DNA from: Amycolatopsis sp. 2-15
Lineage (GTDB): Bacteria > Actinomycetota > Actinomycetes > Mycobacteriales > Pseudonocardiaceae
Length of the DNA stretch: 64,000 bases
Reading direction: 5' to 3'
Assembly: GCF_030285625.1 (NCBI RefSeq)
Contig: NZ_CP127294.1
Location: 7,658,001-7,722,000, forward strand
How positions within the stretch are numbered: the first letter of the stretch is position 1; every line of letters begins with the position of its first letter. A program made the position numbers and the translations under genes. The notes beneath the pieces were generated by a model, which saw only the letters and a program-made list of their open reading frames with translations, did not search any database and had not been told where the DNA came from. Positions 7,593 through 59,489 of this stretch are shown here, in pieces.

Positions 7593-7607
7593 GCCTTCCG
7601 GCTCGGG

Positions 7608-8825: not shown

Positions 8826-8905
8826 GCGCGGCCCGCGAGGACGAGCGCTGCCGGTGCATTTTCTGCTACGCTGCGTTGTCGTTTGCTCAGCTTGGGCGGG
8901 GAGCT

Positions 8906-11794
8906 GTGGGGGACACCGCGAGGTTCGGGATCTTGGGCCCGCTGCGCGTGACGAACGCCGGCCGGCCGTTGAAGTCCGCGGGGCCGCGGCAGCGGGCACT
9001 GCTCGCCGCGCTGCTGGTGCGTACCCGTCAACCGGTCGGTCTCACCGGTCTCGTCGAGGCGATGTGGGGCGAGTGTCCGCCGAACTCGGCCGTCGCGAAC
9101 GTGCACACCTACGTGAGCCGGCTGCGGCGCGACCTCGCCGAGATCGGTCTCCGGGACCTGCTGGTCACCGACGGTGGCGGGTACCGGCTGCTCGTCGAAC
9201 CCGATCAGCTGGACAGCCACCTGTTCCAGACCGCGGCCGAGGAAGCGCGCACGGCGCTGGCCTCCGGCGACACCGTCAAGGCAGTGGCCGTGTGGGAGGA
9301 CGCGTGGACGGCGTGGCGCGGCGACCCGCTGGAGGACGTCCCCTGCGCCGGGTGGCTGGAAGCCGAGAAGGTACGGCTCGAGCAGACGGCCGCGGCGGCC
9401 CGCGAGGACTTCGCCGACGCTCGCCTGGCGGCCGGCCAGTACAGCACGCTCATCCCCGAGCTGGCGGCGCTGGTGCGGCAGCTGCCGTTGCGGGAGGGCT
9501 TGTGGCAGCGGTTGATGCTCGCCCAGCACCGGGCGGGCCGGCGTGCCGAAGCCCTGGAGACGTATCACGCGCTGCGCGGAGTGCTCGTCGAAGCGCTCGG
9601 CGTCGAGCCGTGCGGCCCGGTGCAGGAGCTGCACCAGGTGATCCTCAGCGGCGAGCCGGCCGAGGCCGACCGCACCGTGCGGCCCATGCAGCTGCCACCC
9701 GACATCGACGATTTCACCGGGCGGGCGGTCGAAACGGCCGAGCTGCGCGGCCTGCTGACCCGGCCGTCGAGGTCGGTGGTCGCCGCCATCACCGGCAAGG
9801 CGGGAGTCGGCAAGACGGCGCTGGCGATCCGGGTGGCGCACGAGGTCGGCGAGCACTTCGCCGGCGGTCAGCTCTACGTCCGGCTGGGCGGTGCCGGATC
9901 GTCGCCGCAGGAACCGGCGACCGTGCTCGCGAACCTGCTCGTGGCGTTCGGCGTGCACCCGCACGCGGTGCCGGAGGACTTCGAGGCCCGCGCCGCGCTG
10001 TTCCGGTCCCAGCTGGCCGCCCGGCAGGTGCTGATCGTGCTCGACGACGTCACGAGCATGGCCCAGGTCCGCCCGCTGCTGCCGGGTTCGGCCGGGTCCG
10101 CCGTGCTCGTCACGAGCCGCGTGCAGCTGGTGGGCGCGCGGACAGTGCACCTCGACGTGCTCGGCCCGGACGACTCGGTGCGGCTGCTGTCGTCGATCGC
10201 CGGCCCGGCGCGGATGACCGCGGAGCCGGACGCCGCCGCCGCGGTCGCCCGCTACTGCGGCAACCTCCCGCTGGCCCTGCGCATCGCCGCGTCGCGCCTG
10301 GCCCGCCGCGGCCAGTGGACCGTCGGACGGCTGGCGGACCGGCTGGCCGACGAGGGCACCCGGCTCAACGAGCTGCGCATCGACGATCTCGAAGCGCGCG
10401 CCAGCCTGGCGTGGAGCTACGAGGGGCTGGACGAGGTGCAGCAGCGGGCGTTCCGGTTGCTGGGCCTGCTCGAGGTGCCCGACTTCCCCGCCTGGGTGGT
10501 CGCCGCGCTGCTGGAGGTGGACCTGGCGGCGGCCGAGGACATCGTCGACAGCCTCGCTGACGTGCACCTGGTGGAGCTCGCCGGCACCGACCCGGCCGGA
10601 CAGGGCCGCTACCGCTTCCACGATCTGCTGCGGGTGTTCGCCCGCGAACGCGCGAATGCCGTCGACTCGCCCGCCGACCGGACCGCGGCGCTTCGCCGTG
10701 CGTTCGGCGCCTGGCTGGAGCGGGCCGTGCGCGCGGAGGCGGGTCTGCCGTGCCGGTTTCTCAAGGTGCGGCTCACCGCCGGGCGACCGGCCGCCGCCGA
10801 GGAGCTGCCGGCCGATCCCCTCACCTGGCTGGACGCCGAGCGGGACGCGCTCGTCGCCGTGGTCGGGCAAGCCCTCGCGCTGGAGCTGACGGCGCTGGGG
10901 TGCGACCTCGCCTGCGCGCTGACCACCTTGTTCGACCTGCGCAGCCACTACGACCTGTGGCGGCACACCCACGAGCTCGCGCTGACGGCGGCCGTCGCCA
11001 CCGGGGCGCGGCGCAGCCGGGCGATCCTGCACCAAGGCCTCGGCGCACTGGCGTTCTACCGGGATCGCTACGGCGAGGCGAGCGAGCACTTCGAGCAGGC
11101 ACAGGGAATCTTCGCCGAGATCGGCGAGATCCGGGGCCACGCCTACTCGAACCTCGGCCTCGGCAGCGTGCACCTCTACCTCGGCAAACACGGCGAGGCG
11201 GCGGCCGAGCTGGGACAGGCGCGAGCCGCCTTCGACCGGTGCGCGGACGCCAGCGGCGAGGCCTTCGCCTTGCAGGCGCTGAGCATCGTCCACCGCAACC
11301 GCGGAAACCTCGAGGAGGCCGCGGGGTGCCTCGACCGCGCGCTGACGACCTTCCGCGGCCTGGGCAGCCGCTACGGCCAGGCCTGTGCGTTGTTCAGCCT
11401 CGGTCTGCACCACCAGGCCCGCGGCGACCGCGAGGCGACCGAGCGCGCGCTGGTCGAAGCCGTCGAGCTGTTCCGCGCGGCCTCCTGCCCGCGGGACGAA
11501 GCGCTGGCGCTGCACGTGCTGGCCGCCACCTGCGCCGCGCACGGCGACGCGGATCGGGCGTCGCAGCTCATGGCCCAGTCGCTGACGGTCTTCTCCCCCG
11601 AGGACGAGAGCGTCGGCAAGGCCTGTGCGCTCTACAGCCTCGGCTGGGTGGCGCACCGCAACCAGCGCCTTGACGAGGCCGCCGCCTGTTTCGACGAGGC
11701 CTCCCGGCTGTTCGAACGGCTCCGCATGCCGCTGCACAACGCCCGGGCCCTCTCCGCGCTGAACGACCTTGGGCTCAGCCTCCCGCGCCGGTGA
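8906..11794 (+). CDS. AfsR/SARP-family transcriptional regulator (OmpR-type HTH, BTAD, NB-ARC, TPR)
   Basis: About 962 residues from GTG 8906-8908; a TTG start 30 bp upstream is less likely. Residues about 1-95 are an OmpR-like winged helix, 100-245 the bacterial transcriptional activation domain, about 270-530 an NB-ARC ATPase with P-loop GKAGVGKTAL near residue 300, and about 680-950 TPR-like repeats. This is the architecture of AfsR-type SARPs, which bind 11-bp-spaced direct repeats. Such repeats occur upstream of the lectin gene, next to this gene, and upstream of the importer operon. The gene is convergent with that operon, overlapping its last gene by 20 bp. Confidence 0.92.
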   Translation: MGDTARFGILGPLRVTNAGRPLKSAGPRQRALLAALLVRTRQPVGLTGLVEAMWGECPPNSAVANVHTYVSRLRRDLAEIGLRDLLVTDGGGYRLLVEPDQLDSHLFQTAAEEARTALASGDTVKAVAVWEDAWTAWRGDPLEDVPCAGWLEAEKVRLEQTAAAAREDFADARLAAGQYSTLIPELAALVRQLPLREGLWQRLMLAQHRAGRRAEALETYHALRGVLVEALGVEPCGPVQELHQVILSGEPAEADRTVRPMQLPPDIDDFTGRAVETAELRGLLTRPSRSVVAAITGKAGVGKTALAIRVAHEVGEHFAGGQLYVRLGGAGSSPQEPATVLANLLVAFGVHPHAVPEDFEARAALFRSQLAARQVLIVLDDVTSMAQVRPLLPGSAGSAVLVTSRVQLVGARTVHLDVLGPDDSVRLLSSIAGPARMTAEPDAAAAVARYCGNLPLALRIAASRLARRGQWTVGRLADRLADEGTRLNELRIDDLEARASLAWSYEGLDEVQQRAFRLLGLLEVPDFPAWVVAALLEVDLAAAEDIVDSLADVHLVELAGTDPAGQGRYRFHDLLRVFARERANAVDSPADRTAALRRAFGAWLERAVRAEAGLPCRFLKVRLTAGRPAAAEELPADPLTWLDAERDALVAVVGQALALELTALGCDLACALTTLFDLRSHYDLWRHTHELALTAAVATGARRSRAILHQGLGALAFYRDRYGEASEHFEQAQGIFAEIGEIRGHAYSNLGLGSVHLYLGKHGEAAAELGQARAAFDRCADASGEAFALQALSIVHRNRGNLEEAAGCLDRALTTFRGLGSRYGQACALFSLGLHHQARGDREATERALVEAVELFRAASCPRDEALALHVLAATCAAHGDADRASQLMAQSLTVFSPEDESVGKACALYSLGWVAHRNQRLDEAAACFDEASRLFERLRMPLHNARALSALNDLGLSLPRR

Positions 11795-12578
11795 AGCTGA
11801 TCGTCTTCGTCAGGTGCCGCTGCAGCACCACGAAGACGAGCAGGCACGGCAGGCCGGTGATCGTGGCGGCGGACATCAGCTCGGCGGCGGTCAGGTTCCC
11901 GGACTCCAAAGTGGACAGTCCGACCGTCAGGGTACGCATCGAGTCGGAGTGCCCGACCACCAGCGGCCACAGGAAGTCGTTCCAGTGCCACAGGAACACG
12001 AACACGGCGAGCGTGGCCAGCACCGGACGGCACAGCGGCAGCACGATGCTCAGGTACACCCGCCAGTCCCCCGCGCCGTCGACCCGCGCGGCGTCGAAGA
12101 CCTCGTCGGGCAGAGCGCGGATGAACTGCCGCAGCAACAGCACGGCCTGGGCGTTGGCCAGTGTCGGGACGATCAGGCCCCAGTAGGTGTCGGACCAGCC
12201 GAGGTAGGCGATCACCACCAGCGACGGCATCAGCAGGGCCTGGAACGGCACCATCATCGTGGACAGCATCGACCACAGCAGCACCTCGCGGCCGGCGAAC
12301 CGTTTCCTGGCCAAGACGTACGCGGCCATCGACGACGAGAGCAGCACGGCCACCACGGACACCACCGAGTAGATCACCGTATTGGCCGTCCAGCGCAGGA
12401 AGCTCCCGGTCGAAAGCACCTCGGCGAGGTTGTCCAGGGTGAGCGAGGTGGGCAGCCGGTACGGGATCGTCGGCGCGTTGCCCGGGGAAAGGGCGACGAC
12501 CAGCATCACCACGAACGGGCCGATCGCCACGAGCGAGGACAAGGTCAGCAGGACGGCCGGCCAGGCACCGCGGCGCAT
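11775..12578 (-). CDS. carbohydrate ABC transporter permease (second subunit, MalG type)
   Basis: A 267-residue inner-membrane subunit with six predicted helices and the EAA loop DAARVDGAGDWRVYLSIVLP. Its ATG shares one base with the stop of the upstream permease (TGATG), implying translational coupling. It ends with FTGAGG and overlaps the 3' end of the SARP gene by 20 bp. No ATPase gene is in the operon; actinobacterial sugar importers often share an MsiK-type ATPase encoded elsewhere. Confidence 0.9.
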   Translation of the reverse strand: MRRGAWPAVLLTLSSLVAIGPFVVMLVVALSPGNAPTIPYRLPTSLTLDNLAEVLSTGSFLRWTANTVIYSVVSVVAVLLSSSMAAYVLARKRFAGREVLLWSMLSTMMVPFQALLMPSLVVIAYLGWSDTYWGLIVPTLANAQAVLLLRQFIRALPDEVFDAARVDGAGDWRVYLSIVLPLCRPVLATLAVFVFLWHWNDFLWPLVVGHSDSMRTLTVGLSTLESGNLTAAELMSAATITGLPCLLVFVVLQRHLTKTISFTGAGG

Positions 12579-13393
12579 CACGGGTTCCGCTCGAACGCCC
12601 GGCGCTGAGTGAGCGACACCAGCAGCACGATGGCCCACAGCGCCACCCCGATCGCGGCGGCGCCACCGACGTCGAAGTATCGGAAACCGTAGTCGTACAC
12701 CGCGTACGCCAGCGTGTAGCTGGCTCGCACCGGGCCGCCGCCCGTCATCACGTACACGGTGTCGAAGACCTGGAAGGCGGCCATGGTCTCCACCACGACG
12801 ACGAAGAACACCGCCGGGCGCAGCGCGGGCAGCAGCACGTGGCGGAAGCGTTGCCACGCGCTCGCGCCGTCCACCTTCGCCGCCTCCAGGCAGTCGGCGG
12901 GGACGTTCCTGATGCCCGCGAACAGAACCAGCATCGCGTAGCCGAAGCCTTTCCAGACGCCGACCACGGCCAATGTCGGCAGCACCAGCGACGGGTGCTG
13001 CAGGAACCCGGTGGGTTCGAGCACCCAGCGCCAGACGACGCCGCTCAACACCAGGCTGGTGGCGTACGGCGCGAACAACGCCGCGCGGAACAGGCCGCGG
13101 CCCCAGGGCACCGCGTGCAGCAGCACCGCGGTGCTCAGCGCCACCGCGACCGTGAGCGGCACGTAGACGGCGACGTAGCCGAGCGTGGTGCTCAGGCTGC
13201 TCAGGAAGATCTCGTCGTGGGCGAGGCTCCGGAAGTTCGCCGCGCCCACGAACCGTGAGCCGCCGCCGGGGTGGTAGTCGGACACGCTCAGGCCCACCGC
13301 GCCCAGCATCGGCAGGAACCGGAACAGGGCGAACAGCACCAGCACGGGGAGCAGGAAGACGAGCACCGTCAACGACTCCCGCCGCCGCGCCAT
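12578..13393 (-). CDS. carbohydrate ABC transporter permease (first subunit, MalF type)
   Basis: A 271-residue membrane protein with six helices and an EAA loop EAAKVDGASAWQRFRHVLLP, which contacts the ATPase in this family. The start follows the basic MARRR. Coupled by one-base overlaps (TGATG) to both the solute-binding-protein gene upstream and the second permease downstream. Confidence 0.9.
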   Translation of the reverse strand: MARRRESLTVLVFLLPVLVLFALFRFLPMLGAVGLSVSDYHPGGGSRFVGAANFRSLAHDEIFLSSLSTTLGYVAVYVPLTVAVALSTAVLLHAVPWGRGLFRAALFAPYATSLVLSGVVWRWVLEPTGFLQHPSLVLPTLAVVGVWKGFGYAMLVLFAGIRNVPADCLEAAKVDGASAWQRFRHVLLPALRPAVFFVVVVETMAAFQVFDTVYVMTGGGPVRASYTLAYAVYDYGFRYFDVGGAAAIGVALWAIVLLVSLTQRRAFERNP

Positions 13394-32805: not shown

Positions 32806-32861
32806 CAGCCACGTCAGGCATCGTGAAAGGAGCGAAGCAGCCCACCACGGAGGTGATTCGA

Positions 32862-33431
32862 ATGCAGGACACGACCGAAGGCGTCCGGCACTTTCAGCAG
32901 GACGTCTACCCGCGCAAAGCGCGATTGTTCGAGCACCTGGCCACCCACCACGAGCCGGGCACGCTGTTCATCGGCTGTTCCGACGCGCGGGTCGTGCCGG
33001 AGCTCATCACCAGCAGCGAGCCCGGTGAGCTGTTCGTGATCCGCACCGCCGGCAACCTGGTCCCCGCCTACCACCCCGGCGCGGACCCGGTCACCGCCAG
33101 CATCGAGTACGCCGTCGCCGCCCTGGGCGTCACCGACGTCATCGTCTGCGGGCACAGCGCCTGCGGGGCGATGACGGCCCTGGCCGAGAACCACGACCTC
33201 TCGGCCACCCCCGCCGTCGCCGGCTGGCTCGAACAGGCCGATGCCTCCCAGGCCCGGGTGAAAACCCCGGGCGACGTAGCGGAACTGGTGCGCCAGAACG
33301 TGCTCGCCCAGCTGGCCACGCTGGCGACCCACCCCTCGGTCGCCCGCGGCCTCGCCACGCGGACGCTCAGTCTCCACGGCTGGGTCTTCGACATCGCCAC
33401 CGGCCGCGTCGACGTCCTCGACGCGGCCTGA
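32862..33431 (+). CDS. cynT: beta-class carbonic anhydrase (CynT type)
   Basis: A 189-residue enzyme from ATG 32862 with a perfect GGAGGT ribosome-binding site. Zinc ligands and dyad are seen in [13 protein letters not shown] (Cys, Asp-Arg) and [12 protein letters not shown] (His, Cys). In cyn operons carbonic anhydrase supplies bicarbonate so that cyanase is not starved as CO2 escapes. It is 29 bp upstream of cynS. Confidence 0.95.
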
Positions 33432-33460
33432 AACCCCACCACGGAAAGGAAACCCGTCCC

Positions 33461-33931
33461 ATGCTGCACACCCAGCTCGACCCGACCGCCCGCGAAGCCC
33501 TCGCCGTCGCCGCGGTCGAGGCCAAGACCCGCAAGGACCTGTCCTGGCAGCAGATCGCCGACGCCGCCGGGCTTTCGGTCGCCTTCGTCACTGCCGCCGT
33601 GCTCGGCCAGCACCCCCTGCCCGAGCCGTCGGCCCGGGCGGTCGCCGAACTGCTGGACCTCGACGCCGACGCCGTGACTCTCCTGCAAGCCGTGCCCACC
33701 CGCGGCTCGATCCCCGGCGGCGTGCCCACCGACCCGACGATCTACCGCTTCTACGAGATGATCCAGGTCTACGGCACCACCCTCAAAGCCCTCGTCCACG
33801 AACAGTTCGGCGACGGCATCATCAGCGCGATCAACTTCAAGCTCGACGTGCGCAAGGAAGCCGACCCCGAGGGCGGCGAGCGGGCCGTGATCACGCTCAA
33901 CGGCAAGTACCTGCCGACCAAGCCGTTCTGA
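33461..33931 (+). CDS. cynS: cyanase (cyanate hydratase)
   Basis: A 156-residue protein with the catalytic triad at the classical positions: Arg96 and Glu99 in IYRFYEMIQ and Ser122 in [12 protein letters not shown]. The N-terminal domain is helical and HTH-like ([20 protein letters not shown]). It decomposes cyanate with bicarbonate to ammonia and CO2. Confidence 0.97.
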
Positions 33932-33980
33932 CCCGTCCGATGTAGACGATCCCGCTCCGCGTCGCTCCGAGGAAGGCCTG

Positions 33981-34967
33981 GTGTCGAAACCGATGTCCGA
34001 TCCGCTCGGCGAGGTGCGGAAACCCTTTCCCCTCAACCTGTTCGGTGTCGCCTTCGGACTGTCGGGCCTGGCCGGAACCTGGACGGCCGCCGCCGGCACC
34101 ACGGCCGCGATCACCACCGCCTGGTGGCTGGTCGCGGCCGCGGTCTGGCTGGGCAGCGCGCTGCGCTACGGCCTCGCCGCCCGGACCGCGCGTCGGATGC
34201 TCGACGACCACGCCCACCCCGTACTGGGCCCCTTCGCCGCGCTCGTGCCCATCACGGGAATGCTGCTCGGCAGCCAGCTTTCCCGGTTCGCGCCGCAAGC
34301 CGGACGCGTGATGGTGCTCGCCATGTTCACCGCCGCCACCACGATCGGCGTCCGGTACCTGACCAGAGCGCTGACCGGCCGTTACGATCTCGACAGCATG
34401 CACGCCGGCCACCTGCTCCCCACCGTCGCCGCCGGACTGATCGGCGGCCAGTCACTCGCCACCGTCGGCCTCCACGACGCCGCCCTCGCGGCCTTCGCCG
34501 TCGGCATGCTGATGTGGGTGCTCCTTGGCGCCGCGATCCTCGCGCGCCTCGCGTTCCGGCCGCCGCTGCCCGACGCGCTGGTCCCCACGCTCGCGATCTT
34601 CGCCGCCCCGCCGGCCGTCGCGGGCAACGCGTGGTTCACCCTCAACGGCGGTGTCCCCGACCTGCTCGAACACGCGCTGCTCGGCGTGTTCGCGCTGTTC
34701 TTCCTGTCCCAGCTGACGTTGCTCCCCCGCTACGCCCGGCTGCCGTTCACCCACGGGTTCTGGGCGCTGACCTTCACCATCGCGGCCGGCGGCACCTACG
34801 GCATCCACTGGCTCACCGTCACCCACGTCGGCGGCGCGACCACGTGGATCGTCCTCGCCGTCTCGACGACGCTCATCGCCTCGATCGCCGCGCGGTCGAT
34901 CACGCTCGCGATCTCCGGCGCCGGCCTGAAGCCCGCAGTCAGGGCGACTTCGCAAATGTGGCCGTGA
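33981..34967 (+). CDS. TDT/SLAC1-family membrane transporter
   Basis: A 328-residue membrane protein with about ten hydrophobic helices arranged as in the tellurite-resistance/dicarboxylate transporter (TehA/SLAC1) family; FALFFLSQLTLLPRYARLPFTHGFWALTF is typical. GTG start 49 bp after cynS, so it probably belongs to the cyanate operon and may move an anion such as cyanate, bicarbonate or nitrite-like ions. Substrate is inference. Confidence 0.8.
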   Translation: MSKPMSDPLGEVRKPFPLNLFGVAFGLSGLAGTWTAAAGTTAAITTAWWLVAAAVWLGSALRYGLAARTARRMLDDHAHPVLGPFAALVPITGMLLGSQLSRFAPQAGRVMVLAMFTAATTIGVRYLTRALTGRYDLDSMHAGHLLPTVAAGLIGGQSLATVGLHDAALAAFAVGMLMWVLLGAAILARLAFRPPLPDALVPTLAIFAAPPAVAGNAWFTLNGGVPDLLEHALLGVFALFFLSQLTLLPRYARLPFTHGFWALTFTIAAGGTYGIHWLTVTHVGGATTWIVLAVSTTLIASIAARSITLAISGAGLKPAVRATSQMWP

Positions 34968-38113: not shown

Positions 38114-39100
38114 TCAGTCCGGCAGGAAGCCCGCGATCAGATCGTCGTGGGCGAGCACGTCGTCGCCGTAGAGGTCCTGGAGCCAGTTCGTCTGGTAGAT
38201 CGTGTCGAGGTAGCGCTCGCCGAGGTCCGGCGCGATGGCGACGGCGGTGAGGTCGTGCCCGTCGTGCTCGGGGAGCCAGCGCATGGCACCGCTGACGACG
38301 GTGCCGGTGGAGCCGCCGAAGAGGAACCCCCTGCGGGCCAGGCGGTGGCAGCTGCGGATGGTGTCGGCCTCCTCGACGAGGATCACCTCGTCGACATAGG
38401 ACTCGTCGAGCAGCGCCGGCCGGACACTCGTGCCGAGGCCGGGGATCATCCGGCGGCGCGGCGCGCCGCCGAAGGTCACGGAGCCGGCGCTGTCCACCGC
38501 GACGATGTGGACCGGCCTGGGCCACTCGCGGAAGAAGCGGGCGCAACCCATGAGCGTGCCCGTGGTGCCTGCGCCGACGAACAGCACGTCGAGTTTCGGG
38601 AACTGGCGGGCGATCTCCGGCGCCGTGGTCCGGTAGTGCGCCTTCCAGTTGCCCGGATTCGCGTACTGGTTGAGCCAGACGTAACGCTCGTCGGTGGCGC
38701 ACAGCTCACGCACCAGCGCGAGCCGCGCGCCCAGGAAACCGCCGTCGGCGGCGGGCTCCGCGATGATGTGCACCCGGCTGCCCAGCGCCTCCATCAGGCG
38801 CCTGCTGGCCAGGTTGCAGCGCGAGTCCGTGACGCAGAGGAACCGGTAGCCCTTGCTGGCGGCGACCATGCTGAGCGCCACCCCGAGGTTGCCCGACGAC
38901 GATTCGACCAAGATCGAGTCCCGCGTCAGGAGTCCCTGCCACTCGGCGGCCTCGACCATCTCGGTCGCGGCCTTGAGCTTGATCGACCCGGCGAAGTTGA
39001 ACCCCTCGCACTTGAGGAACAGCGAGTGCCCGAAGATCGACTCGAGGTCGACGTAGAGCTCTTCCTCGTTGAAGTCCGTGGGATCGGATATCACGGTCAC
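38114..39100 (-). CDS. sbnA: SbnA-like PLP enzyme, N-(2-amino-2-carboxyethyl)-glutamate synthase for L-2,3-diaminopropionate
   Basis: A 328-residue cysteine-synthase-fold protein. The PLP lysine lies in GFNFAGSIKLKAA, the Asn loop in ESSSGNLGVAL and the phosphate loop in FVGAGTTGTLMG. SbnA joins O-phosphoserine and glutamate to give ACEGA, which SbnB oxidises to 2,3-diaminopropionate. It is adjacent to the SbnB-like gene in the same operon, supporting this assignment over plain cysteine synthase. Confidence 0.9.
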   Translation of the reverse strand: MTVISDPTDFNEEELYVDLESIFGHSLFLKCEGFNFAGSIKLKAATEMVEAAEWQGLLTRDSILVESSSGNLGVALSMVAASKGYRFLCVTDSRCNLASRRLMEALGSRVHIIAEPAADGGFLGARLALVRELCATDERYVWLNQYANPGNWKAHYRTTAPEIARQFPKLDVLFVGAGTTGTLMGCARFFREWPRPVHIVAVDSAGSVTFGGAPRRRMIPGLGTSVRPALLDESYVDEVILVEEADTIRSCHRLARRGFLFGGSTGTVVSGAMRWLPEHDGHDLTAVAIAPDLGERYLDTIYQTNWLQDLYGDDVLAHDDLIAGFLPD

Positions 39101-39124
39101 GATGACCCCCTCCCTGGTTTCTCG

Positions 39125-40195
39125 TCAGCCGTAGCGGCGCAGTTCGTGGAAGAAGTCCGGGATGACGGTCAGCTCGCCGGCCCGGACCACCTCGTCGTAG
39201 ACGTACTTGCCCACCGCGAGGTCGAGGACCCCGAGCCCGAACGGCGAGAACACCACGGGCCGGTCGGTCGGCACTGGGACCCGTCCGGCCAGGACGTCGT
39301 CCAGCGTGCCGTCGAGGAACTCGCGCCCGCCGGTGAGCTGCTCGGCCAGGTGCGGCGACGTGCCGGCCTTCAGGCAGTGCTCGACGTCGTCGACGAAGTT
39401 GGCCGTGCTCAGCAGCAGCTCCGGCGCGAGGTCGCGCAGGGAAACGTGCAGCACCACCGGATCGTGGTCGAACCACGACCGTTCGGACACGTGCGGCCGG
39501 CCCGCGACGGTGGCGAACACGACCAGGTCGCTCGAGGAGATCAGCGACTCCGCCGACTCGTGGACCGTGATCCGCCCGCCCGTTCCCGTCCGCTCGAGGT
39601 ACCCGCGGAACCCCGCGCCGCTCTCGGGCGACAAGTCGTGCACGCCGATTTCGGCGAACTCCCAGCCGGTGCCGGCCAGGAAGGTGTGGATGTAGCGGGC
39701 GATGAGCCCGGTCCCGACGAACCCGACACGGGTCGGCCGCGCCCGGCCCCGGCTGAGCGCCGCCGCGGCGCACGCGGCCAGCGCGGCGGTGCGCGTGGCG
39801 CTGATGATCGAGCTTTCCAGGCACGCGAACGGGTATCCGGTGTCGTGGTCGTTGAGGATCAGGACCGCGGACGCCCGGGGAAGGCCGGAAGCGACGTTCT
39901 CCGGGAAGCTCGAGATCCACTTGAGACCGTCCACGCGCACCTGTCCGCCGATCGAGGCCGGCAGCGCGATGATCCGGGACGCCGGACGGTCGGGGAATCG
40001 CAGGAAGTACGACGGCGGGTTCACCGTGTCGCCCGCGCTGTGCAGCCGGTAGGTGGCCTCGACCAGGTCCACGATCTCCTGCTCGCGCCCCGCGAGCGTG
40101 TGCCGGACCTGACCGCCGCCGATCACGGCGAACGGGGGCACCGCGGCCGGCCCGTCGGCTTCGGCGCGGGCCGGGGTGGGTCGGATCGCCGTCAT
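39125..40195 (-). CDS. sbnB: SbnB-like dehydrogenase of the ornithine cyclodeaminase family (2,3-diaminopropionate formation)
   Basis: A 356-residue NAD-dependent enzyme starting ATG 40193-40195. Features: GDTVNPPSYFLRFPD, GLKWISSFPENVASGLPRAS, Rossmann GFVGTGLIARYIHTF, LVVFATVAGRP and PFGLGVLDLAVGKYVYDEV. This matches SbnB, which oxidatively hydrolyses ACEGA to diaminopropionate and 2-oxoglutarate. Overlaps the dioxygenase stop by 4 bp. Confidence 0.9.
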   Translation of the reverse strand: MTAIRPTPARAEADGPAAVPPFAVIGGGQVRHTLAGREQEIVDLVEATYRLHSAGDTVNPPSYFLRFPDRPASRIIALPASIGGQVRVDGLKWISSFPENVASGLPRASAVLILNDHDTGYPFACLESSIISATRTAALAACAAAALSRGRARPTRVGFVGTGLIARYIHTFLAGTGWEFAEIGVHDLSPESGAGFRGYLERTGTGGRITVHESAESLISSSDLVVFATVAGRPHVSERSWFDHDPVVLHVSLRDLAPELLLSTANFVDDVEHCLKAGTSPHLAEQLTGGREFLDGTLDDVLAGRVPVPTDRPVVFSPFGLGVLDLAVGKYVYDEVVRAGELTVIPDFFHELRRYG

Positions 40196-41196
40196 CTCGC
40201 ACCTGCGTCCGCGCTCGGCACCAGGTCGGCAAGCCGCACCGGATCGGCCAGCCCCACGAGCACCTCGCGGGGCCCTTCGAAGGGCTCGCGGCTGTGCGCG
40301 GTCCGGATGTTGTCCACCAGCATCAGGTCCCCGGCCTGCCACGGCTCGCGCGCGGTGTTGGCCTCGTAGACACGGTTGAGCAGCGCCACCACGTCCTCGC
40401 CGATCGGGTCGCCGCCCCCGAAGCGGGTGTTGAACGGCAGCGCGTCGGCGCCGTAGACGTCGACCAGGTACTCGCGGATCTCGGGATCCATGGTCCACTC
40501 GTTGAGGAACGCGACCTGGTTGAACCAGCAGCGCCGGCCGGTGACCGGGTGGGGCACGATCGCGCTGCGCCGCTGCCGGGTCCGCAAACCGCCGTCGGGC
40601 TGCCACTCGAACTCGATCGCGTGGGCGCGGCAGTAGTTCTCGATCTCCGCCCGGTCGTCGGTGCCGAACGACTCGGCGACCGTCGCGCCGATCTCGTTGT
40701 TGTAGCTGCGGGTGAGCAGCCAGCCCTCCTGCTCGAACCGGCGGACGAGGTCCGCGGGCAGCGCGTCGAGCACGGTCGGCGAGTCGGACACGGCCGTGGC
40801 GCCGCCTTCGGTGGGCGCGCCGAGGCAGGCGAACAGCAGCAGGCCGGGGAACTCGAGCCGGTAGCTCAGCTCGTGGTGCATGCACATCGGCTGGTTCGCC
40901 GGCCACGCCGACGACGAGTACACCCCGGCCGGGTAGACCTCGCGCGCCGCGAAGGCCTCGCGATCCTTCATGAGGGCGCCGGCGAGCCGCTCGAACACGA
41001 CGGCGACATCGGCGGGGCCGCTCAGCCCGAGGCCGCGCACGAGCACGCAGCCGTGTTCGGCGACAGCAGCGCGCAGCGGGTCGCGGTGTTCACTCGCCCA
41101 GGCCGGCGCACCGGCACCCGGTTCGGCCGGCAGCAACGGCACGCCACCCGGGCTCAGCCGCACTTCGGCGAGCGATGCCGACGTTGAGGAAACCAT
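40192..41196 (-). CDS. TauD/TfdA-type Fe(II)/2-oxoglutarate dioxygenase (SyrP-like)
   Basis: A 334-residue oxygenase. Iron ligands are in MCMHHELSYRLEFPG (His-x-Glu) and the distal His in NIRTAHSREPFEGPRE, with the Arg that binds 2-oxoglutarate. SyrP-type enzymes hydroxylate amino acids bound to NRPS carrier domains, so hydroxylation of diaminopropionate on the neighbouring NRPS is a reasonable proposal. Its own 2-oxoglutarate is a by-product of SbnB. The gene is 22 bp from the NRPS stop, with a good ribosome-binding site. Confidence 0.88.
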   Translation of the reverse strand: MVSSTSASLAEVRLSPGGVPLLPAEPGAGAPAWASEHRDPLRAAVAEHGCVLVRGLGLSGPADVAVVFERLAGALMKDREAFAAREVYPAGVYSSSAWPANQPMCMHHELSYRLEFPGLLLFACLGAPTEGGATAVSDSPTVLDALPADLVRRFEQEGWLLTRSYNNEIGATVAESFGTDDRAEIENYCRAHAIEFEWQPDGGLRTRQRRSAIVPHPVTGRRCWFNQVAFLNEWTMDPEIREYLVDVYGADALPFNTRFGGGDPIGEDVVALLNRVYEANTAREPWQAGDLMLVDNIRTAHSREPFEGPREVLVGLADPVRLADLVPSADAGAR

Positions 41197-41218
41197 CTCT
41201 TGTCCTTTCGGCTTGAAG

Positions 41219-44200
41219 TCACGTGACAGGCACCGGCTCGACGGCGCGCAGCACGATCCGCGCGGTCTCGGCCGGGTTGGTGCGGGGGAAGTAGTGGCCG
41301 CCGCCGGCGATCGCCCGCACCTCGACGTGCTCGGCCAGCAGCCGCCATTCGCGGTGGCGGTCGCGGAAGTCCACGGTGATCGGGTCGTCGTCCGCGGCGA
41401 CGACGGTGACCGGCGTGGTCAGCTTCGCCGCCGGCGGGTTCGCCAGCGCGGAGGCGAGGTAGCTGTGCGCGGACACGCAGTCGTGCCGGAACGCCGCGCC
41501 GACCTGCTCGGCCCGCTGCGCGTCGAGCCCGCCGAGCGCGGGGTCGCCGCTGTCCGCGGCCAGCTCCGCGGCGATCGCGGAGTCGCTCAACCGGCCCAGC
41601 TCGCTGATCGAGGCGCGCCGTTCGTCGGCGTCGCCGAGCAGCTGCGCGCCCAGGAACAGCCGCCGCACGTCCACCCCGCGCCCGGCGAGCCGCCGGGCCG
41701 TCTCGAAGGCGAACGCGGCCCCCGAGGAATGGCCCCACAGCAGCACACGCTTCGGGGCGAGGTGCTCGATTTCCGCCACGACCTGGTCGATGACCCGCAC
41801 CATCGGCGCGAACGCCTCGCGGTCGGCGGCCAGGTCGTGTCCGGGCAGCTCCACGGCGTACACCGCGAGCCCGCTGTCCCGCAGCGCCGACGCCAGCGGC
41901 CGGAAGTTCACCGAGTTGCCCCCGGCGTGCGGGAAACAGACGAGCACGGCGTCCGGCGCTCCGACCGGGTCGGTGAGCGGCTGCAGCAGCCCACCGGCCT
42001 CGTCGCCGGCCCGGTCTTCGAGCAGCGCGGCCTGGTCGGCGAGCACCGGGTGCCGGGTGATCTCGGCGAGCGACACCGCGCGGTCCAGCGCAACGGCCAG
42101 CTTCACCGCCGAAAGCGATGTGCCGCCCCGGTCGAAGAAGTGGTCGCGCCGGCCGATCTTCTCCGGCGCGAGGCCGAGCACGCCGGCCCACGCGGCCGCC
42201 AGCCGCTGCTCGGCGGGTGTCGCCGGAACGTCGTGGTCTTCTTCGGCCCCTTCGAGCTCCGTCGCCAACGCGGTCAGCACCAACTTGTCGATCTTGCCGT
42301 TGGCGGTCAAGGGAAGCTGCTCTCGCCGGTGGAGCGCCGACGGGACCATGTAAGCGGGCAGCGAGCGGCTCAGCTCGGCGCGCAGCGTCTCGTCGGGCAG
42401 CGCCTCGGCGGCGGAATAGAACGCCACCAGGTGCTTGCCCTGGCCGTCCCGCTCGGCGACCACCACGGCGCCGTCGCCGACCCCGGGCACGCGCAGCAGC
42501 GCGTTCTCGACCTCGCCGATCTCGATCCGGAAGCCGGAGATCTTCACCTGGCTGTCGCGGCGGCCCAGGAACTCCAGCCGGCCCCCGGGCAGCCAGCGGC
42601 CACGGTCCCCGCTGCGGTAGAGCCGCTCGCCCGCCCGGTGCGGATCGGGCAGGAACGCCGCGCGGGTGCGCGCGAGGTCGTTCACGTACCCGCGGCCCAC
42701 GCACACGCCGGAGAACACGATCTCGCCGGGCGCGCCCAGCGGCACCGGCTGCAGGTGCTCGTCGACGACGTAGACGTGCACGTTGTTCACGGGCCGCCCG
42801 AGCGGGACCCGGCCGGCGTCCGGTGGCCGGTCCATGACCTCGTGGTTGGTGTCGTCGGAGGTCTCGGTGAGGCCGTAGGCGTTGACCAGCCTGACCTCCG
42901 GGTACGCCGCGAACCAGCGCTGCACCAGCTCCTTCTTCAGCGCCTCGCCGGTCACCGACACGCACCGCAGGTCCGGCAGCGGGCGCGGATGGCTCTCCAC
43001 AAAGGACAGCACGGCTTCCAGATAGGACGGGACGACCTGCGCCACCGCGACCCGGCCCCGGGCGATCCGGTCGACGAACCGCTCGGCGTCGAGGATCACC
43101 TCCTGCTCGACGATCGACGTCCGCCCGCCGACGAGCAGCGGCGCCAGCAGCTGCCACAACGAGATGTCGAAACACTGGGGCGCGGTCTGCGCCACGACCT
43201 GTCCCTCGGTGATCCCCAGGTCGTCGATCTTGGCGTGCAGGTGGTTCAGCATCCCCGCGTGCTCGCACATCGCGCCCTTGGGCTCACCGGTGGAGCCGGA
43301 GGTGAAGTAGATGTAGGCGAGCTGGCGTGGCGTCACGTCGATCCCGAGGTCGGTGGTGGACCGGTGCTCGGCGCAGGCCACCTCGACGTGCAGCCGCACC
43401 ACGCCGGGCAGCAACGCCAGCGCGTGGTCCAGCGTCTCGCCGGCGCCGCGTTCGGTCAGCACCAGTTCGCAGCCGGCCTGCCGCAGAGTCTTCGCGATCC
43501 GCTCGGGCGGGAAGCGCGGTTCGACCGGCAGGTACACGCCGCCGGCCTTGAACACGGCGAGCACGGCGGCGAGCCAGCCGAGGTTGCGCTCGGTCACCAC
43601 CGCCACGACGCTCTCGCGGCGCAGCCCCCGCGCGAGCAGCGCCCGCGCCAGCCGGTTGGCCCGCTCGTTGAGCTCGCGGTAGGTCCACGCGCGCTCGCCG
43701 TGCACGGCCGCGAGCCTGTCCGGATGCCGCCGCACCCGTTGCTCGAACAGCTCGTGCACCCGCAGGTCGGGCAGCGCCCGCCGCGGGCCGGCGAGCCCCT
43801 CGAGCTGGAACCGCAACTCGTCGGGTGCGAGCAGGCTCTGCGGCGAGTGCTCGGTGTCCGGGGCCGCCACCAGCCGCGCGAGCGCGGCGACGTGGTAGCC
43901 GGCGATCCGGGCCGCGGCGGCCGCGTCGAGCACGTCGGCGCGGTAGCGCACGTTGAGGCGCCGGCCGCGGTTCGCGAACCCGACGCGCAGCACCGACGTC
44001 CCCGTGAGCTCACCGTCGCCGGAGGGGTCGAACACGATCTCTGTGACCGGGCCGGGCACACCCAGGTCGCGCCGCAGCTCGTCCACCGGGAAAAACCGGT
44101 GGGCCAGCAACTGCGACTCGGCCCGGTACGTCTCGGTCACCAGGTCCCGCCACGTGTCCGGTTCCGTCGTCAGGCGGCACGGCACCGGTTCGCCGGCCTG

Positions 44201-44464
44201 CGCTGCATAGCCGGTCACGACCTCGCGCTCACCGGTCAGCGCCGCGAGCACCTTGGCGTGCGCGGCGAGCAGCACCGCGCTGCCCGGAATCCCCAGCTCC
44301 CGCGCCAGCCGGCGCACGCCCGCCGCCACCGGGGCGGGCAGCCGCACGGTCGTCGTCCCCGCTCCGGTGTCCGAACCCGAGGTCCAGCGCGGCACCGTCG
44401 TGGCCCCGCCGGCCACGAGCACGTCACGCCAGAACCGGAAGTCGGCTCTCGGTAGCTCCTCCAT
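41219..44464 (-). CDS. non-ribosomal peptide synthetase: partial condensation-adenylation-carrier-thioesterase
   Basis: A 1081-residue protein with a GAGGAGGGG ribosome-binding site. Residues 1-210 resemble only the C-terminal lobe of a condensation domain, with no HHxxxDG motif. Adenylation spans about 235-735: YFTSGSTGEPKG (386-397), FDISLWQLL (432-440), NAYGLTETSDD (528-538), and Lys in NGKIDK. The carrier Ser is S783 (DRGGTSL). The thioesterase spans about 835-1075, with GHSSG (Ser913) and a late GGGHYF His. By-eye alignment to GrsA gives a pocket code D-I-W-Q-S-T-A-D-D; acidic residues fit a basic side chain such as diaminopropionate, but this is tentative. Confidence 0.9.
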   Translation of the reverse strand: MEELPRADFRFWRDVLVAGGATTVPRWTSGSDTGAGTTTVRLPAPVAAGVRRLARELGIPGSAVLLAAHAKVLAALTGEREVVTGYAAQAGEPVPCRLTTEPDTWRDLVTETYRAESQLLAHRFFPVDELRRDLGVPGPVTEIVFDPSGDGELTGTSVLRVGFANRGRRLNVRYRADVLDAAAAARIAGYHVAALARLVAAPDTEHSPQSLLAPDELRFQLEGLAGPRRALPDLRVHELFEQRVRRHPDRLAAVHGERAWTYRELNERANRLARALLARGLRRESVVAVVTERNLGWLAAVLAVFKAGGVYLPVEPRFPPERIAKTLRQAGCELVLTERGAGETLDHALALLPGVVRLHVEVACAEHRSTTDLGIDVTPRQLAYIYFTSGSTGEPKGAMCEHAGMLNHLHAKIDDLGITEGQVVAQTAPQCFDISLWQLLAPLLVGGRTSIVEQEVILDAERFVDRIARGRVAVAQVVPSYLEAVLSFVESHPRPLPDLRCVSVTGEALKKELVQRWFAAYPEVRLVNAYGLTETSDDTNHEVMDRPPDAGRVPLGRPVNNVHVYVVDEHLQPVPLGAPGEIVFSGVCVGRGYVNDLARTRAAFLPDPHRAGERLYRSGDRGRWLPGGRLEFLGRRDSQVKISGFRIEIGEVENALLRVPGVGDGAVVVAERDGQGKHLVAFYSAAEALPDETLRAELSRSLPAYMVPSALHRREQLPLTANGKIDKLVLTALATELEGAEEDHDVPATPAEQRLAAAWAGVLGLAPEKIGRRDHFFDRGGTSLSAVKLAVALDRAVSLAEITRHPVLADQAALLEDRAGDEAGGLLQPLTDPVGAPDAVLVCFPHAGGNSVNFRPLASALRDSGLAVYAVELPGHDLAADREAFAPMVRVIDQVVAEIEHLAPKRVLLWGHSSGAAFAFETARRLAGRGVDVRRLFLGAQLLGDADERRASISELGRLSDSAIAAELAADSGDPALGGLDAQRAEQVGAAFRHDCVSAHSYLASALANPPAAKLTTPVTVVAADDDPITVDFRDRHREWRLLAEHVEVRAIAGGGHYFPRTNPAETARIVLRAVEPVPVT

Positions 44465-44476
44465 GTGTTCCCCTCC

Positions 44477-47329
44477 TCACCGTGGCCACGGGCTCGGCCG
44501 CCACGTTCCGTCGGCGATGATCGCCTTTCCGTTGTGTCCGTCCGGGCCGCGGCGCCGCGGGCTGGGCCGCCGTTTTCCGTTGGTGACGGCGAATTGCTCG
44601 ATCGGCCTGCCGTTGTGCCCTTCCCGTCGCCGGTGCCGGCCGGCGCGGGCCAGACCGTCGGCTTCACGGCCGGGCCGGATCTCCCGGGCCGGGTTGCCCT
44701 CCCACCGGGTGTGCGGCGGTACGTCCTCGCCCTTCATCAGGAAGGAGTCGGCCGCGAGCACCGAACCCTCGCCCATCGTCGCTCCGTAGTGGACCCACGC
44801 GCCGACCCCGACGGTGCTGCGCGCGCCGACGACGATGCGGTCGGCCTTGAAGGCACCGTCCTCCTGGGAATGGCATTGCACGTGCGAGCCGACGTTGAGA
44901 GTGGCCTCGTCGCCGAACGTCACGAGCGTCTTCTCCGGCATCGCCGCGCCGTCGTCGAACACGCGCTTTCCCACCTTGACCCCGAGCATCCGCCAGGCCA
45001 GGTTCTTGAACGGGGTGCCGTTGAGGGCCTGGACGTACACCGTGGACGCCGCCGCCTTCCAGAACCGCTCGTGGCGCCAGAAGCGGCGGTCGTAGATCGA
45101 GCAGTACAGCGGCCGCAGCGGGTGGATCACGATGGACGCCCGTTCCACCAGCGTGAAATAGACGGAGCTGAACAGCAGCGCGGCGACCGAGGCCAGCGCC
45201 ACCGCCGAGACCCCGAAGCGCGGGTAGAGCGCCGCCGAGGCCCAGCCGAGCAACGTGATCCCGCAGAAGTAGAGCCAGCGCACCAGCAGGAACATCACCG
45301 CGGTGCCGGCGTTGTGCCGGTTCTTCGCGGCCAGCCGGCGGCGGAACTCGTCGCCGCCGCGCAGGTGGTCGAACTGGTGATCGCGGGCCACCGTGCGCGG
45401 GATCTCGAAGCTCGGCGAGCCCAGGAGCCCGACATTCTCACGGACGGGGCCGTCGACGGGCACCAGGACCTTGGTCGCGAGCAGGCAGTTTTCCCCCGTC
45501 CGCCCCTGGGAGGGGTAGACGATCACGTTGCCGAGGAAGTTGTGCGCGCCGATGGCCGCCCGGGAAACCTTGAAGGACGTGCTGGAGTAGTCGGCGTTCA
45601 CGACCGAGAGACCGTCCGCCACCATCGTGCCGCTGCCGACGGAACTCTGGTACGGCGTCTCGTGCTTGATCGCCGTGCCGAAGTTCGAGCCGGTCTGCTC
45701 GACGTCGGGCATCCGGTAGCCGAGGTAACGCAGGTAGTGCACGATCGCGGAGCTGTCGCCGAACACGGTCATGAAGAACTTGAGGTTGGTGATCAGCCGG
45801 ATCGCCCGCAGGATCGAGTAGCGCAGGGTGTACAGGCGGTAGACCTTGTCCGGCTTGAGCGCGAGGCTGAGCACGCGCGGGACGACCGCGATGAAGAGCA
45901 GCCCGAGCAACGAGACTCCGAAGAAGATCACGAACGTGACCACCAGCGCGCTGCCGTAGAACGCCCAGCTGCCGAACGAGACCGTGGGGGCCCCGAGCAC
46001 CGTGCCGAGCCGCGGGACCTTCGCGATGAGCAGGTCCACACCGCCGACCGCCAGCGGCAGGTACACGAGCAGCGTGGTCAGCAGCTGCGAGACGCCGTAG
46101 GAGAACCGGCGCACCCGGCCGCAGCGCGCGGGCCCGACCCCGCGGTAGTCCGCCTCCGCGCGCAGCGCCGGCGAACCGTGCCAGCGCTCGCCGGCCGGCA
46201 CCGCCTGCCCGGGGTGCAGCGACGACACGTGCCCCAGCTGGGAGCCGTCGCCCATCGATGTGCCGATGTCGAGCACCGACAGCTCACCCACGAACACGTC
46301 CTTGCCGAGCGTCACCGAACCGGTCTGGAGCACGCCCGCCTCGGCCCGGTAGCCGGTGAAGAACGAGTCCTTCCGGATCACCGAGCCTTCGCCGATCGTG
46401 AGCAGGTCGGTGCACACGGGCACATTGCGCGAGAAGATCGCGACGCCCGGGCCGATCTTCGCGCCCAGCGCCTTCAGGTACAGCACGTACAGCGGCGAGC
46501 CCAGGAACAGCAGCGCCACCGGATTCCGCTGTACCAGCGTCTTGACGAGCCAGAACCGGAAGTAGGCGGGCGTCCACACACGAATCCGCTGTGGCTTCCA
46601 CCGGCCGACGAGCACCCACTTCGCCACGACCGGCAGCAGGCACAGCCCGATCAGGCTCGCACCGCCGAACAGCACGAGCCGCAGGTAGACCTCCAGCAGG
46701 TTCGCCGAGGCGTACACCCACGAAGCACCGCGTACCACCAGGAGTGCGGCGAGATAGGAATAACCCAGGAAAGTCACGAACTGGAGCAGTCCGCAGAGGA
46801 CGTACGCGACCGCGCCGGCGCGGGGCCGGTCAGCGGCCTGCGCCGGGGTCTGTTCTGTCTCCTGTTCCCGGGCTTGTGCTTCGGCCTGTTCTCCGGCCTC
46901 CGGATCCGCCTCGGCGGGCTCGTCGTCGGTGAGCGCGGTCGCGAGACTCCGCGCGGTCGGGTTGGCGTAGACGTCTTTCATCGACGCCGATGGCACGTCC
47001 GCCCGCTTGCGGACCCGCGCACAGAAGTGCGCCATCACCAGCGAGTTCGCGCCCAGGTCGTCGAAGAAGTGGCTCTCGGCCGACACCTGGTCGACCTTCG
47101 CCACGTCCGCGAGCACCTCGGTGTAGACGCGCTCGGTGCGATCGGGAGTGATGGCGTGCCGGCCACTCCCCCGTCGAGATTCTGCCCAGTTGCCCGTCAG
47201 GAATTCGTCACTTTTCCCCAGGCCCCGGGCTTGGTTCTTCCCACCTGTATTCTCCCGCCTCCACGTCCCCGACCGGCCGGACGTACCGGCATCGTCTCGG
47301 GGCCGTTCGCCACCCACTGTAATCCCCAC
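44477..47329 (-). CDS. carrier protein fused to Pls-type membrane tandem domains (NRPS terminal-domain family)
   Basis: A 950-residue membrane protein. Residues about 60-135 are a carrier domain with phosphopantetheine Ser96 in FFDDLGANSL. An acidic linker follows, then six to eight hydrophobic segments separating three cytosolic domains with hexapeptide-like turns (IGPGVAIFSRNVPVCTDLLT, TLGKDVFVGELSVLDIGTSM, TLNVGSHVQCHSQEDGAFKA). This is the layout after the adenylation domain of epsilon-poly-lysine synthetase (Pls), where these domains join amino acids. No adenylation domain is present here. The last 45 residues are a basic, repetitive tail. It is the first gene of the operon, 12 bp ahead of the NRPS gene. 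Confidence 0.85.
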   Translation of the reverse strand: MGITVGGERPRDDAGTSGRSGTWRRENTGGKNQARGLGKSDEFLTGNWAESRRGSGRHAITPDRTERVYTEVLADVAKVDQVSAESHFFDDLGANSLVMAHFCARVRKRADVPSASMKDVYANPTARSLATALTDDEPAEADPEAGEQAEAQAREQETEQTPAQAADRPRAGAVAYVLCGLLQFVTFLGYSYLAALLVVRGASWVYASANLLEVYLRLVLFGGASLIGLCLLPVVAKWVLVGRWKPQRIRVWTPAYFRFWLVKTLVQRNPVALLFLGSPLYVLYLKALGAKIGPGVAIFSRNVPVCTDLLTIGEGSVIRKDSFFTGYRAEAGVLQTGSVTLGKDVFVGELSVLDIGTSMGDGSQLGHVSSLHPGQAVPAGERWHGSPALRAEADYRGVGPARCGRVRRFSYGVSQLLTTLLVYLPLAVGGVDLLIAKVPRLGTVLGAPTVSFGSWAFYGSALVVTFVIFFGVSLLGLLFIAVVPRVLSLALKPDKVYRLYTLRYSILRAIRLITNLKFFMTVFGDSSAIVHYLRYLGYRMPDVEQTGSNFGTAIKHETPYQSSVGSGTMVADGLSVVNADYSSTSFKVSRAAIGAHNFLGNVIVYPSQGRTGENCLLATKVLVPVDGPVRENVGLLGSPSFEIPRTVARDHQFDHLRGGDEFRRRLAAKNRHNAGTAVMFLLVRWLYFCGITLLGWASAALYPRFGVSAVALASVAALLFSSVYFTLVERASIVIHPLRPLYCSIYDRRFWRHERFWKAAASTVYVQALNGTPFKNLAWRMLGVKVGKRVFDDGAAMPEKTLVTFGDEATLNVGSHVQCHSQEDGAFKADRIVVGARSTVGVGAWVHYGATMGEGSVLAADSFLMKGEDVPPHTRWEGNPAREIRPGREADGLARAGRHRRREGHNGRPIEQFAVTNGKRRPSPRRRGPDGHNGKAIIADGTWRPSPWPR

Positions 47330-54661: not shown

Positions 54662-56953
<2,292 letters not shown>

Positions 56954-57782: not shown

Positions 57783-59489
57783 ATGACGACCTCGGAAGAC
57801 TACGTCGACGCCGGTGAGGCCATCGACCAGGGAAACCTGAGCTACAAGATGCCAGGCGGGGATCTCGCTCCGCCGGTCACGGCCGGCGTGAACTACGAGC
57901 GCATCCTCAACGCCCGCAACGAACCGCACAACTGGCTGACCTACTACGGCGCCTACGACGGGCAGCGCTACAGCCCGCTGGACCAGATCAACACCGACAA
58001 CGTCAAGCGTCTCGCTCCCGCCTGGGTGTTCCAGGCCGGCACGACCGGCCTGATCGCGGGCGCGTCGACCTACTCGTTCGAAGCCGCCCCGATCGTCGTC
58101 GACGGGATCATGTTCGTGACCGGCTGGGACGGCTGGATCTGGGCCCTGGACGCGAAAACAGGGGTGGAGATCTGGCGGTACAAGCACGCCGTGCCGTTCG
58201 ACGTTTCGCTGTGCTGCGGCAACGTCAACCGCGGATGCGCCGTCGCGCAGGGCAAGGTCTTCTTCGTCACGGCGAACGCCCGGCTCCTCGCGCTCGACGC
58301 GACCAGTGGGAAAATGGTGTGGACCAAGACCTACGGCGACGTACGGGCCGGTGAGAGCGCCACCGTCGCGCCACTGGTCGTGAAGAACATGGTCATCGTG
58401 GGCAGTTCCGGCGGCGAGTTCGGCGTGCGCGGTCACCTCGACGCGTTCGACCTCGAATCCGGCGAGCACCAGTGGCGCTGCTACATGGTGCCGAAGCCCG
58501 GGGAACCGGGCTCCGAGACCTGGCCCGCCGACGGCGAAGCCTGGGCGCGCGGCGGTGCGAACTGCTGGCTCACCAGCACGTTCGACCCGGAGACCAACCT
58601 GCTCTACGTCGGTACCGGCAACCCGGCGCCCGACTTCGACGGCGAGGTCCGGGAAGGCGACAACCTCTACACCGACAGTATCGTCGCCGTCGACGTGGAC
58701 AGCGGGCAGATCCGCTGGCACCACCAGTGCACGCCGCACGACCTGTGGGACTACGACAGCATCGCCGAGTGCATCCTGTTCGAGAAGGACGGCCGCAAGC
58801 TGCTCGGGCACTTCGACAAGAACGGCTACTTCTACGTTCTCGATCGCACCAACGGCGAGCTGATTCAGGTCACCCCGTTCGTGGACCGCATCACCTGGGG
58901 CGCGGTCACTCGCGACGGCCGGGTCACGGCCAAGCTGTACCCCGAGAAGGAGGGCGAACCGGTCCACTTCTACCCGGGTCCGGCCGGCGCGAAGGAATGG
59001 ACCCACGCGTCCTACAGCCCGAAGACCGGGCTCTTCTACGTCCCGGTCCAGGACACCGGGGCCACGGCCACCCGGCGCCGCCGGGAGTTCAAGGAGAGCA
59101 TCCCGTATTGGGGCGCCGGGGTTCAGGTGGACGCCGAGGACATGACCGGGTCGGTCAGCGCGTTCGACGGCAACGGCGAGGAGAAGTGGCGCTGGCGCAA
59201 CGAACTGCCGATGTGCGCCTCGACGCTGGCCACCGGCGGCGACCTGGTGTTCGCCGGCGAAGCCACCGGCGAGTTCAACGCGCTCGACGCGCGCACCGGA
59301 GAGCAGCTCTGGCAGTTCCAGTGCGGAAGCGGCCACCACAGCAGCCCGACCACGTACACGGTCGACGGGCGGCAGTACGTCGCCGTGCCCGTCGGCTGGG
59401 GCGGGTGGGCCGAGGGATTCCTCCCCGGCATGCTGGGTGCGGGGCACGGAAGCGCCCTGTTCGTCTTCGCCCTCCCGGAATCAACGTGA
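57783..59489 (+). CDS. PQQ-dependent alcohol dehydrogenase (methanol/ethanol dehydrogenase family)
   Basis: A 568-residue eight-bladed beta-propeller with AGGAAGGAGG upstream. Vicinal cysteines Cys144-Cys145 (SLCCGNVNRG) form the characteristic disulfide. Tryptophan-docking repeats such as LDAKTGVEIWRYK, LDATSGKMVWTKT and LDARTGEQLWQFQ recur. The catalytic region reads CTPHDLWDYDSI: Asp323 is the likely base and Asp325, two residues on, is the position occupied by Asp in lanthanide-using XoxF/PedH-type enzymes. No signal peptide is seen, unlike most relatives. pqqA-E follow in the same operon. Confidence 0.92.
   Translation: MTTSEDYVDAGEAIDQGNLSYKMPGGDLAPPVTAGVNYERILNARNEPHNWLTYYGAYDGQRYSPLDQINTDNVKRLAPAWVFQAGTTGLIAGASTYSFEAAPIVVDGIMFVTGWDGWIWALDAKTGVEIWRYKHAVPFDVSLCCGNVNRGCAVAQGKVFFVTANARLLALDATSGKMVWTKTYGDVRAGESATVAPLVVKNMVIVGSSGGEFGVRGHLDAFDLESGEHQWRCYMVPKPGEPGSETWPADGEAWARGGANCWLTSTFDPETNLLYVGTGNPAPDFDGEVREGDNLYTDSIVAVDVDSGQIRWHHQCTPHDLWDYDSIAECILFEKDGRKLLGHFDKNGYFYVLDRTNGELIQVTPFVDRITWGAVTRDGRVTAKLYPEKEGEPVHFYPGPAGAKEWTHASYSPKTGLFYVPVQDTGATATRRRREFKESIPYWGAGVQVDAEDMTGSVSAFDGNGEEKWRWRNELPMCASTLATGGDLVFAGEATGEFNALDARTGEQLWQFQCGSGHHSSPTTYTVDGRQYVAVPVGWGGWAEGFLPGMLGAGHGSALFVFALPEST

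Follow-up and report, generated by a model that had tools for sequence, protein, structure and literature searches.

The subject of this report is a tightly packed five-gene operon of Amycolatopsis sp. 2-15, which runs on the minus strand from position 47329 to position 38114 of the 64,000-nucleotide stretch of DNA that was analysed (the window). We think it probable that this operon encodes a split, trans-adenylated relative of the cationic homopolymer synthetases Pls (epsilon-poly-lysine) and PosA (delta-poly-ornithine), dedicated to L-2,3-diaminopropionate (Dap). In the proposed scheme, SbnA and SbnB would produce Dap, and the adenylation (A) domain of a soluble non-ribosomal peptide synthetase (NRPS) would adenylate it, loading the carrier of its own chain (T1) and, directly or via transfer, the Ser96 carrier of a separate membrane protein. 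The C1-C2-C3 membrane region of the latter would link the Dap units to an oligomer without a conventional condensation (C) domain, a TauD-type dioxygenase would oxidise the units, carrier-bound or in the chain, and the thioesterase (TE), where present, would be an accessory in proofreading or carrier-to-carrier transfer and not a general release enzyme. What the sequences establish is the set of genes with their intact motifs and conservation, along with the fusion, the damaged cis A domains and the co-occurrence described below; from these we infer Dap as the substrate, loading of the membrane-protein carrier in trans, and polymerisation by C1-C2-C3.

The membrane protein (950 amino acids; 44477..47329) matches TIGR02353 over the full model (729.7 bits, model positions 1-695 of 695, cut-off 423). 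This polymerase region spans residues 178-881, and a carrier domain (PF00550, residues 71-133, Ser96) stands immediately ahead of it; hydropathy gives eight candidate membrane segments, most of them in three groups. No profile match to an AMP-binding (A) domain was found anywhere in the 950 residues, and an A domain is encoded by the adjoining gene (41219..44464). According to Pfam and NCBIfam matches, the product of that gene, a candidate trans-activating NRPS of 1081 amino acids, consists of a half C domain (about 1-225), an A domain (236-735), a T domain (Ser783), and a TE (Ser913 and His1057). The half C domain (Cx), which is supported by fold comparison, is a C-terminal lobe only, without HHxxxD, and is thus not a complete HHxxxDG C domain. 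The operon continues with a TauD/SyrP-like Fe(II)/2-oxoglutarate dioxygenase (334 amino acids; 40192..41196; PF02668), an SbnB-type dehydrogenase of Dap synthesis (356 amino acids; 39125..40195; TIGR03944, 409.5 bits, cut-off 327), and an SbnA-type Dap synthase dependent on pyridoxal phosphate (328 amino acids; 38114..39100; TIGR03945, 390.3 bits, cut-off 350). These profile matches bear out the inventory of an earlier note, which had listed SbnA/SbnB, a dioxygenase, a partial-C NRPS with A-T-TE, and a T-domain membrane protein.

Relatives were collected in two ways: a species-genome scan with the 950-residue protein found 158, the best 80 of which were kept (L021-L100), and an NRPS search of 200 genomes of the family gave matches in 48, from the best of which L001-L020 were built. 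Among these loci, activation in trans is supported by a natural fusion, by damaged cis A domains, and by co-occurrence across genomes. The fusion is found in L078, a metagenome-assembled genome of Verrucomicrobiales, where Cx, A, T and polymerase lie in one open frame together with SbnB and SbnA; neither TauD nor TE was found at this locus. In a quick polymerase tree, made without bootstrap, the ordinary fused A-T-polymerase proteins are set apart by one branch (SH-aLRT 95), and L078, whose branch is long and whose forks are open, is placed among the split proteins and those of the T3 loci described below.

In seven Pseudonocardia loci (L031, L033, L037, L042, L066, L067, and L085), a cis A domain precedes the carrier and the trans module is present as well; the L031 contig stops within the Cx of the module, and the module A domain is outside the available DNA. 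The cis A domain is damaged in all eight Pseudonocardia loci examined, that is, these seven and L133 from the genome of L064. In L031, L033 and L042, only 87-101 residues separate motif A7 from the carrier serine, versus 164-172 in the fused loci (measured in the 11 of 16 in which A7 was found directly), and a large part of the C-terminal subdomain is therefore absent. In L037, the A7-to-carrier region contains a proline-rich stretch, and the reading frame is broken upstream. The A3 P-loop is lost in L066, L067 and L085, where Arg also replaces the A10 Lys; L133 carries the same lesions as L066, and the polymerase regions of L066 and L067 are identical. All 16 fused relatives outside the cassettes have A3, A8 and the A10 Lys intact. 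Of 74 near-invariant A-domain columns, selected on the intact domains themselves, the fused proteins retain 71-74, compared with 39-59 in the first seven damaged ones. Column retention by itself was rejected as a proof that a domain is damaged, because intact distant A domains also score low (58 in a lysine-type protein, L102, and 49-50 in the T3 ligases), and it is consequently the motif lesions, not the column totals, that carry the argument.

Seventeen loci (two of them, L021 and L064, short-flanked) are orphans, in which an A-less polymerase has no A domain in the available DNA. The trans module was found elsewhere in the genome in 14 of 14 tested among these 17, and in all four T3 genomes tested. 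For the fused loci, the module was present in none of the three genomes tested first and in two of 12 further ones, leaving 13 of 15 without it; the two exceptions are G208, in which L031 also lies, and G227, where an A-less polymerase adjoins the module. In the 13 module-free genomes, all 26 polymerase matches above the cut-off lie in frames of at least 1290 amino acids, which by length alone would be fused proteins, and the one extra match is a 430-residue fragment below the cut-off. The orphans could be taken as counter-evidence, a notion that we rejected since, where readable, they are extra copies in module-holding genomes. Because they are mostly extra copies beside a full cassette, they show co-occurrence rather than proof of loading. 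Taken with the fusion and the damaged cis A domains, this pattern argues for the earlier suggestion that an A domain acts in trans on a membrane polymerase of the Pls type. As a separate observation, G208 (Pseudonocardia alaniniphila, the genome of L031, L060 and L075) contains 15 TIGR02353 matches, several of them in frames not long enough to include a fused A domain.

The arrangement is not a one-off, but recurs across many actinobacteria. Neighbours were counted in L021-L100 only, where 40 loci have a cassette A domain and 28 of these have polymerase flanks of 7.5 kb or more in both directions; 12 cassette loci and five fused loci were excluded for shorter flanks. SbnA is present in all 28 long-flank cassettes, TauD in 27, SbnB in 26, and TE in six. 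At the 11 long-flank fused loci (of 16), SbnA, SbnB and TauD are each absent, and a class III aminotransferase (10/11) and an amino-acid kinase (5/11) occur instead, which fits a supply of diaminobutyrate. Since 22 of the 28 cassettes yielded no TE, we rejected the TE as a general release step, and the idea that an oligomer is as a rule finished by a thioesterase, also put forward in the earlier note, did not hold. Neighbour clustering found no further tailoring or exporter gene common to most cassettes; a phosphopantetheinyl transferase lies near six of the 28 and a LuxE-like gene near seven. Strict E-values were passed by 4012 of 8000 scored NRPS candidates and by 5600 of 8000 scored TauD candidates, counts that do not take gene order into account. 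In the family search, none of the ten same-genus genomes among those listed had an NRPS match, and the module is therefore patchy within the genus.

The dioxygenase of the window keeps its iron ligands (His-His-Glu at 107-109 and the distal His301), and H-x-E with a distal His is found in all 62 TauD rows, in which the window copy is counted twice. Its model matches TauD folds generally, the nearest being At3g21360, for which reason we rejected reading its reaction from the fold; chain 9yut is a match of the sequence search that is not among the fold matches listed. In the T3 loci, Cx-A-T is deleted or decayed, and a TIGR03098-type ligase (761 and 756 bits, two loci tested, cut-off 592) and a free carrier stand in its place. 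TauD, about 70-72% identical, remains beside the polymerase in five of five T3 loci and in L101, and in one T3 locus (L055) Cx is joined to the second half of T. L101 is an A-less polymerase locus of the T3 kind in the genome of Amycolatopsis sp. 2-15 itself (C1:7262001-7282000, about 6211-12900), with tandem carriers and polymerase, a Cx remnant with in-frame stops, TauD, the TIGR03098-type ligase, and a free carrier. The same genome encodes a fused A-T-polymerase of 1320 amino acids (L102; C1:5586001-5600000, 4554-8513) with the lysine-type code DAESIGTVVK; together with the window protein, this makes three Pls-type polymerases. Because TauD persists in T3 loci without an intact Cx-A-T, it probably acts on the polymerase carrier or on the chain.

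These loci also allow a wider, tentative reading, which we regard as possible at best: that there is a large Pls-type class in which activation was uncoupled from polymerisation, the cis A domain having decayed and given way to the trans Cx-A-T Dap module, and that module in turn, in T3, to the TIGR03098-type ligase with a free carrier, whereas both TauD and the membrane polymerase were retained. A single trans A domain might then feed several polymerases in a cell (compare the 15 matches of G208), and TauD might yield an oxidised cationic homopolymer, of which we know no example.

Stand-alone hydroxylases dock on interface C domains, and systems of the syringomycin type combine an A-T protein, an Fe/2-oxoglutarate enzyme, and transfer to another carrier. 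By analogy, Cx-A-T1 could hold Dap while TauD, perhaps docked on the half C domain, oxidises it there, and the oxidised residue alone would pass to the membrane protein for a short, defined molecule. The near-constant presence of TauD in the cassettes agrees with this, the TE of the window NRPS could carry out the transfer, and a comparable combination is touched on in PMC8949500. We nevertheless find it doubtful, given that most cassettes lack a TE and that TauD stays by the polymerase in T3 loci despite the loss or decay of Cx-A-T. Cx and TauD usually co-occur in the cassettes, but T3 loci have TauD without an intact Cx-A-T and L078 has Cx with no TauD nearby, and the role of Cx as an interface domain for TauD is weakened accordingly.

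As for the substrate, the ten-residue code of the window A domain, DIWQSTADDK, is present unchanged in 50 of 60 cassette A domains, a set that includes the window copy (L001) and the Verrucomicrobiales fusion; the others have DIWQSTTDDK (five), DIWQSTVDDK (two), and DIWQATADDK (one), and two lack the last position at a contig end. The code DVWQMIGDDK is given among those for diaminobutyrate, and the two Dap codes in that source are 80% identical to diaminobutyrate codes (PMC12283262). A diamino acid is the likely substrate because of the pocket, and Dap specifically would follow from the linked Dap genes. That the A domain activates another residue, Dap being used elsewhere, seems unlikely to us: the solved structure that matches best in the pocket region, 9n1u, is listed without a stated substrate, and a literature search found no papers naming 9N1U or 9N1V, but SbnA and SbnB accompany nearly every cassette, no second intact A domain was found within the cassettes examined, and the pocket resembles the diaminobutyrate-type code just mentioned. 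A similarity to linear gramicidin synthetase of 568 bits was rejected, because it is the sum of two A domains that score about 266 and 301 singly.

Several points weigh against a dedicated Dap homopolymer synthetase. The code DIWQSTADDK lacks an assayed Dap domain as its reference, and it is unlike the code of the poly-diaminopropionate (PDAP) and poly-diaminobutyrate (PDAB) type, which the fused relatives carry as DFECLSVVTK (16/16). SbnB was not found in two of the 28 cassettes (L039 and L057), nor TauD in one of these (L057); in L129 and L132, Cx-A-T, TauD, SbnB and SbnA stand together without an adjoining polymerase. The T3 loci have TauD and polymerase with no Dap genes nearby, and Dap is hence not tied to every A-less polymerase. 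To our knowledge, moreover, neither TE nor TauD has a counterpart in the known homopolymer synthetases.

The polymerase region itself is well conserved. It was aligned in 83 proteins (81 of 97 matches, those of sufficient length, with L101 and L102), and the window protein matches 49 of the 50 columns that do not vary among 17 fused polymerases; retention of these columns is 96.4% in 35 split proteins, 98.3% in the seven with a damaged A domain, 94.3% in six T3 proteins, 96.9% in the 17 orphans, and 96% in L078. Hexapeptide acyltransferase-like repeats in the region could point to an aminoacyltransferase that attaches Dap to another molecule in a single step, but the complete TIGR02353 region, the retained columns, and the polymers made by fused family members (PMC4668381, PMC10522769, PMC8117764) make this very unlikely. 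In the Arthrobacter-type polymerases (L071, L072, L083, L087-L090, and L096), tblastn finds three to four tandem carrier domains, and in several loci SbnB is followed by a LuxE-like gene.

In the literature consulted, the characterised cationic homopolymer synthetases are single chains with activation in cis (PMC4668381, PMC10522769, PMC8117764). Among the closest is PDAPs of Streptomyces albulus PD-1 with NjxA/NjxB (PMC4668381), which resembles the present system in its SbnA/SbnB-type Dap supply and in a carrier that precedes the Pls membrane region; however, it is one A-T-C1C2C3 chain without TauD, half C domain or TE, and its Dap genes do not lie close to pdaps. Pls, PosA and the poly-diaminobutyrate synthetases share the TIGR02353 region, but have the A domain in the same chain and Ala, Met or Phe at code position 2 and Glu at position 3 (PMC10522769, PMC8117764). 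PDAP/PDAB synthetases have Phe and a conserved Glu at these positions (PMC10522769); the window A domain, with Ile and Trp, does not have such a pocket. Outside this class, CmnA-A1 of capreomycin biosynthesis loads Dap in trans onto the A-less CmnI carrier (PMC12400406), likewise with the A domain and the carrier on separate proteins, but CmnI contains a canonical, HHxxxD-bearing C domain and serves a defined peptide without a membrane polymerase. In albicidin, ramoplanin and enduracidin biosynthesis, inactive A domains are rescued by separate A-T proteins (PMC8949500), a combination proposed here too, although those are modular assembly lines and not of the Pls type.

The dapdiamide pathway (DdaA-DdaI) combines Dap synthesis, an A-T-TE type NRPS, an Fe/2-oxoglutarate oxygenase, and fumaramoyl ligases. 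We know of no Pls-type membrane protein in it, and no fumaramoyl ligase was seen in the present operon. A comb-like Dap polymer, reportedly described by Takehara in 2021 and cited in PMC10522769, is a candidate product for comparison. Among the top-ranked papers of the literature searches, whose coverage leaves out most subscription journals and thus does not show absence in print, none was seen to describe a split Pls, and none appeared to report an oxygenase for this polymerase class. A natural trans-activated family with remnants of the cis domain would offer a direct route to the substrate acceptance of C1-C2-C3, because the loading enzyme could be exchanged with the membrane part untouched, and it suggests that many Dap-based cationic products in Streptomyces, Amycolatopsis, Pseudonocardia and Arthrobacter are yet to be explored.

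Elsewhere in the window, genes for a carbonic anhydrase, a cyanate lyase and a SLAC1-type channel lie in tandem at 32823-34967; a peroxidase of 750 amino acids (PF00141) is encoded at 54701-56953, and a beta-propeller dehydrogenase of the pyrroloquinoline quinone (PQQ) type further on at 57783-59489.

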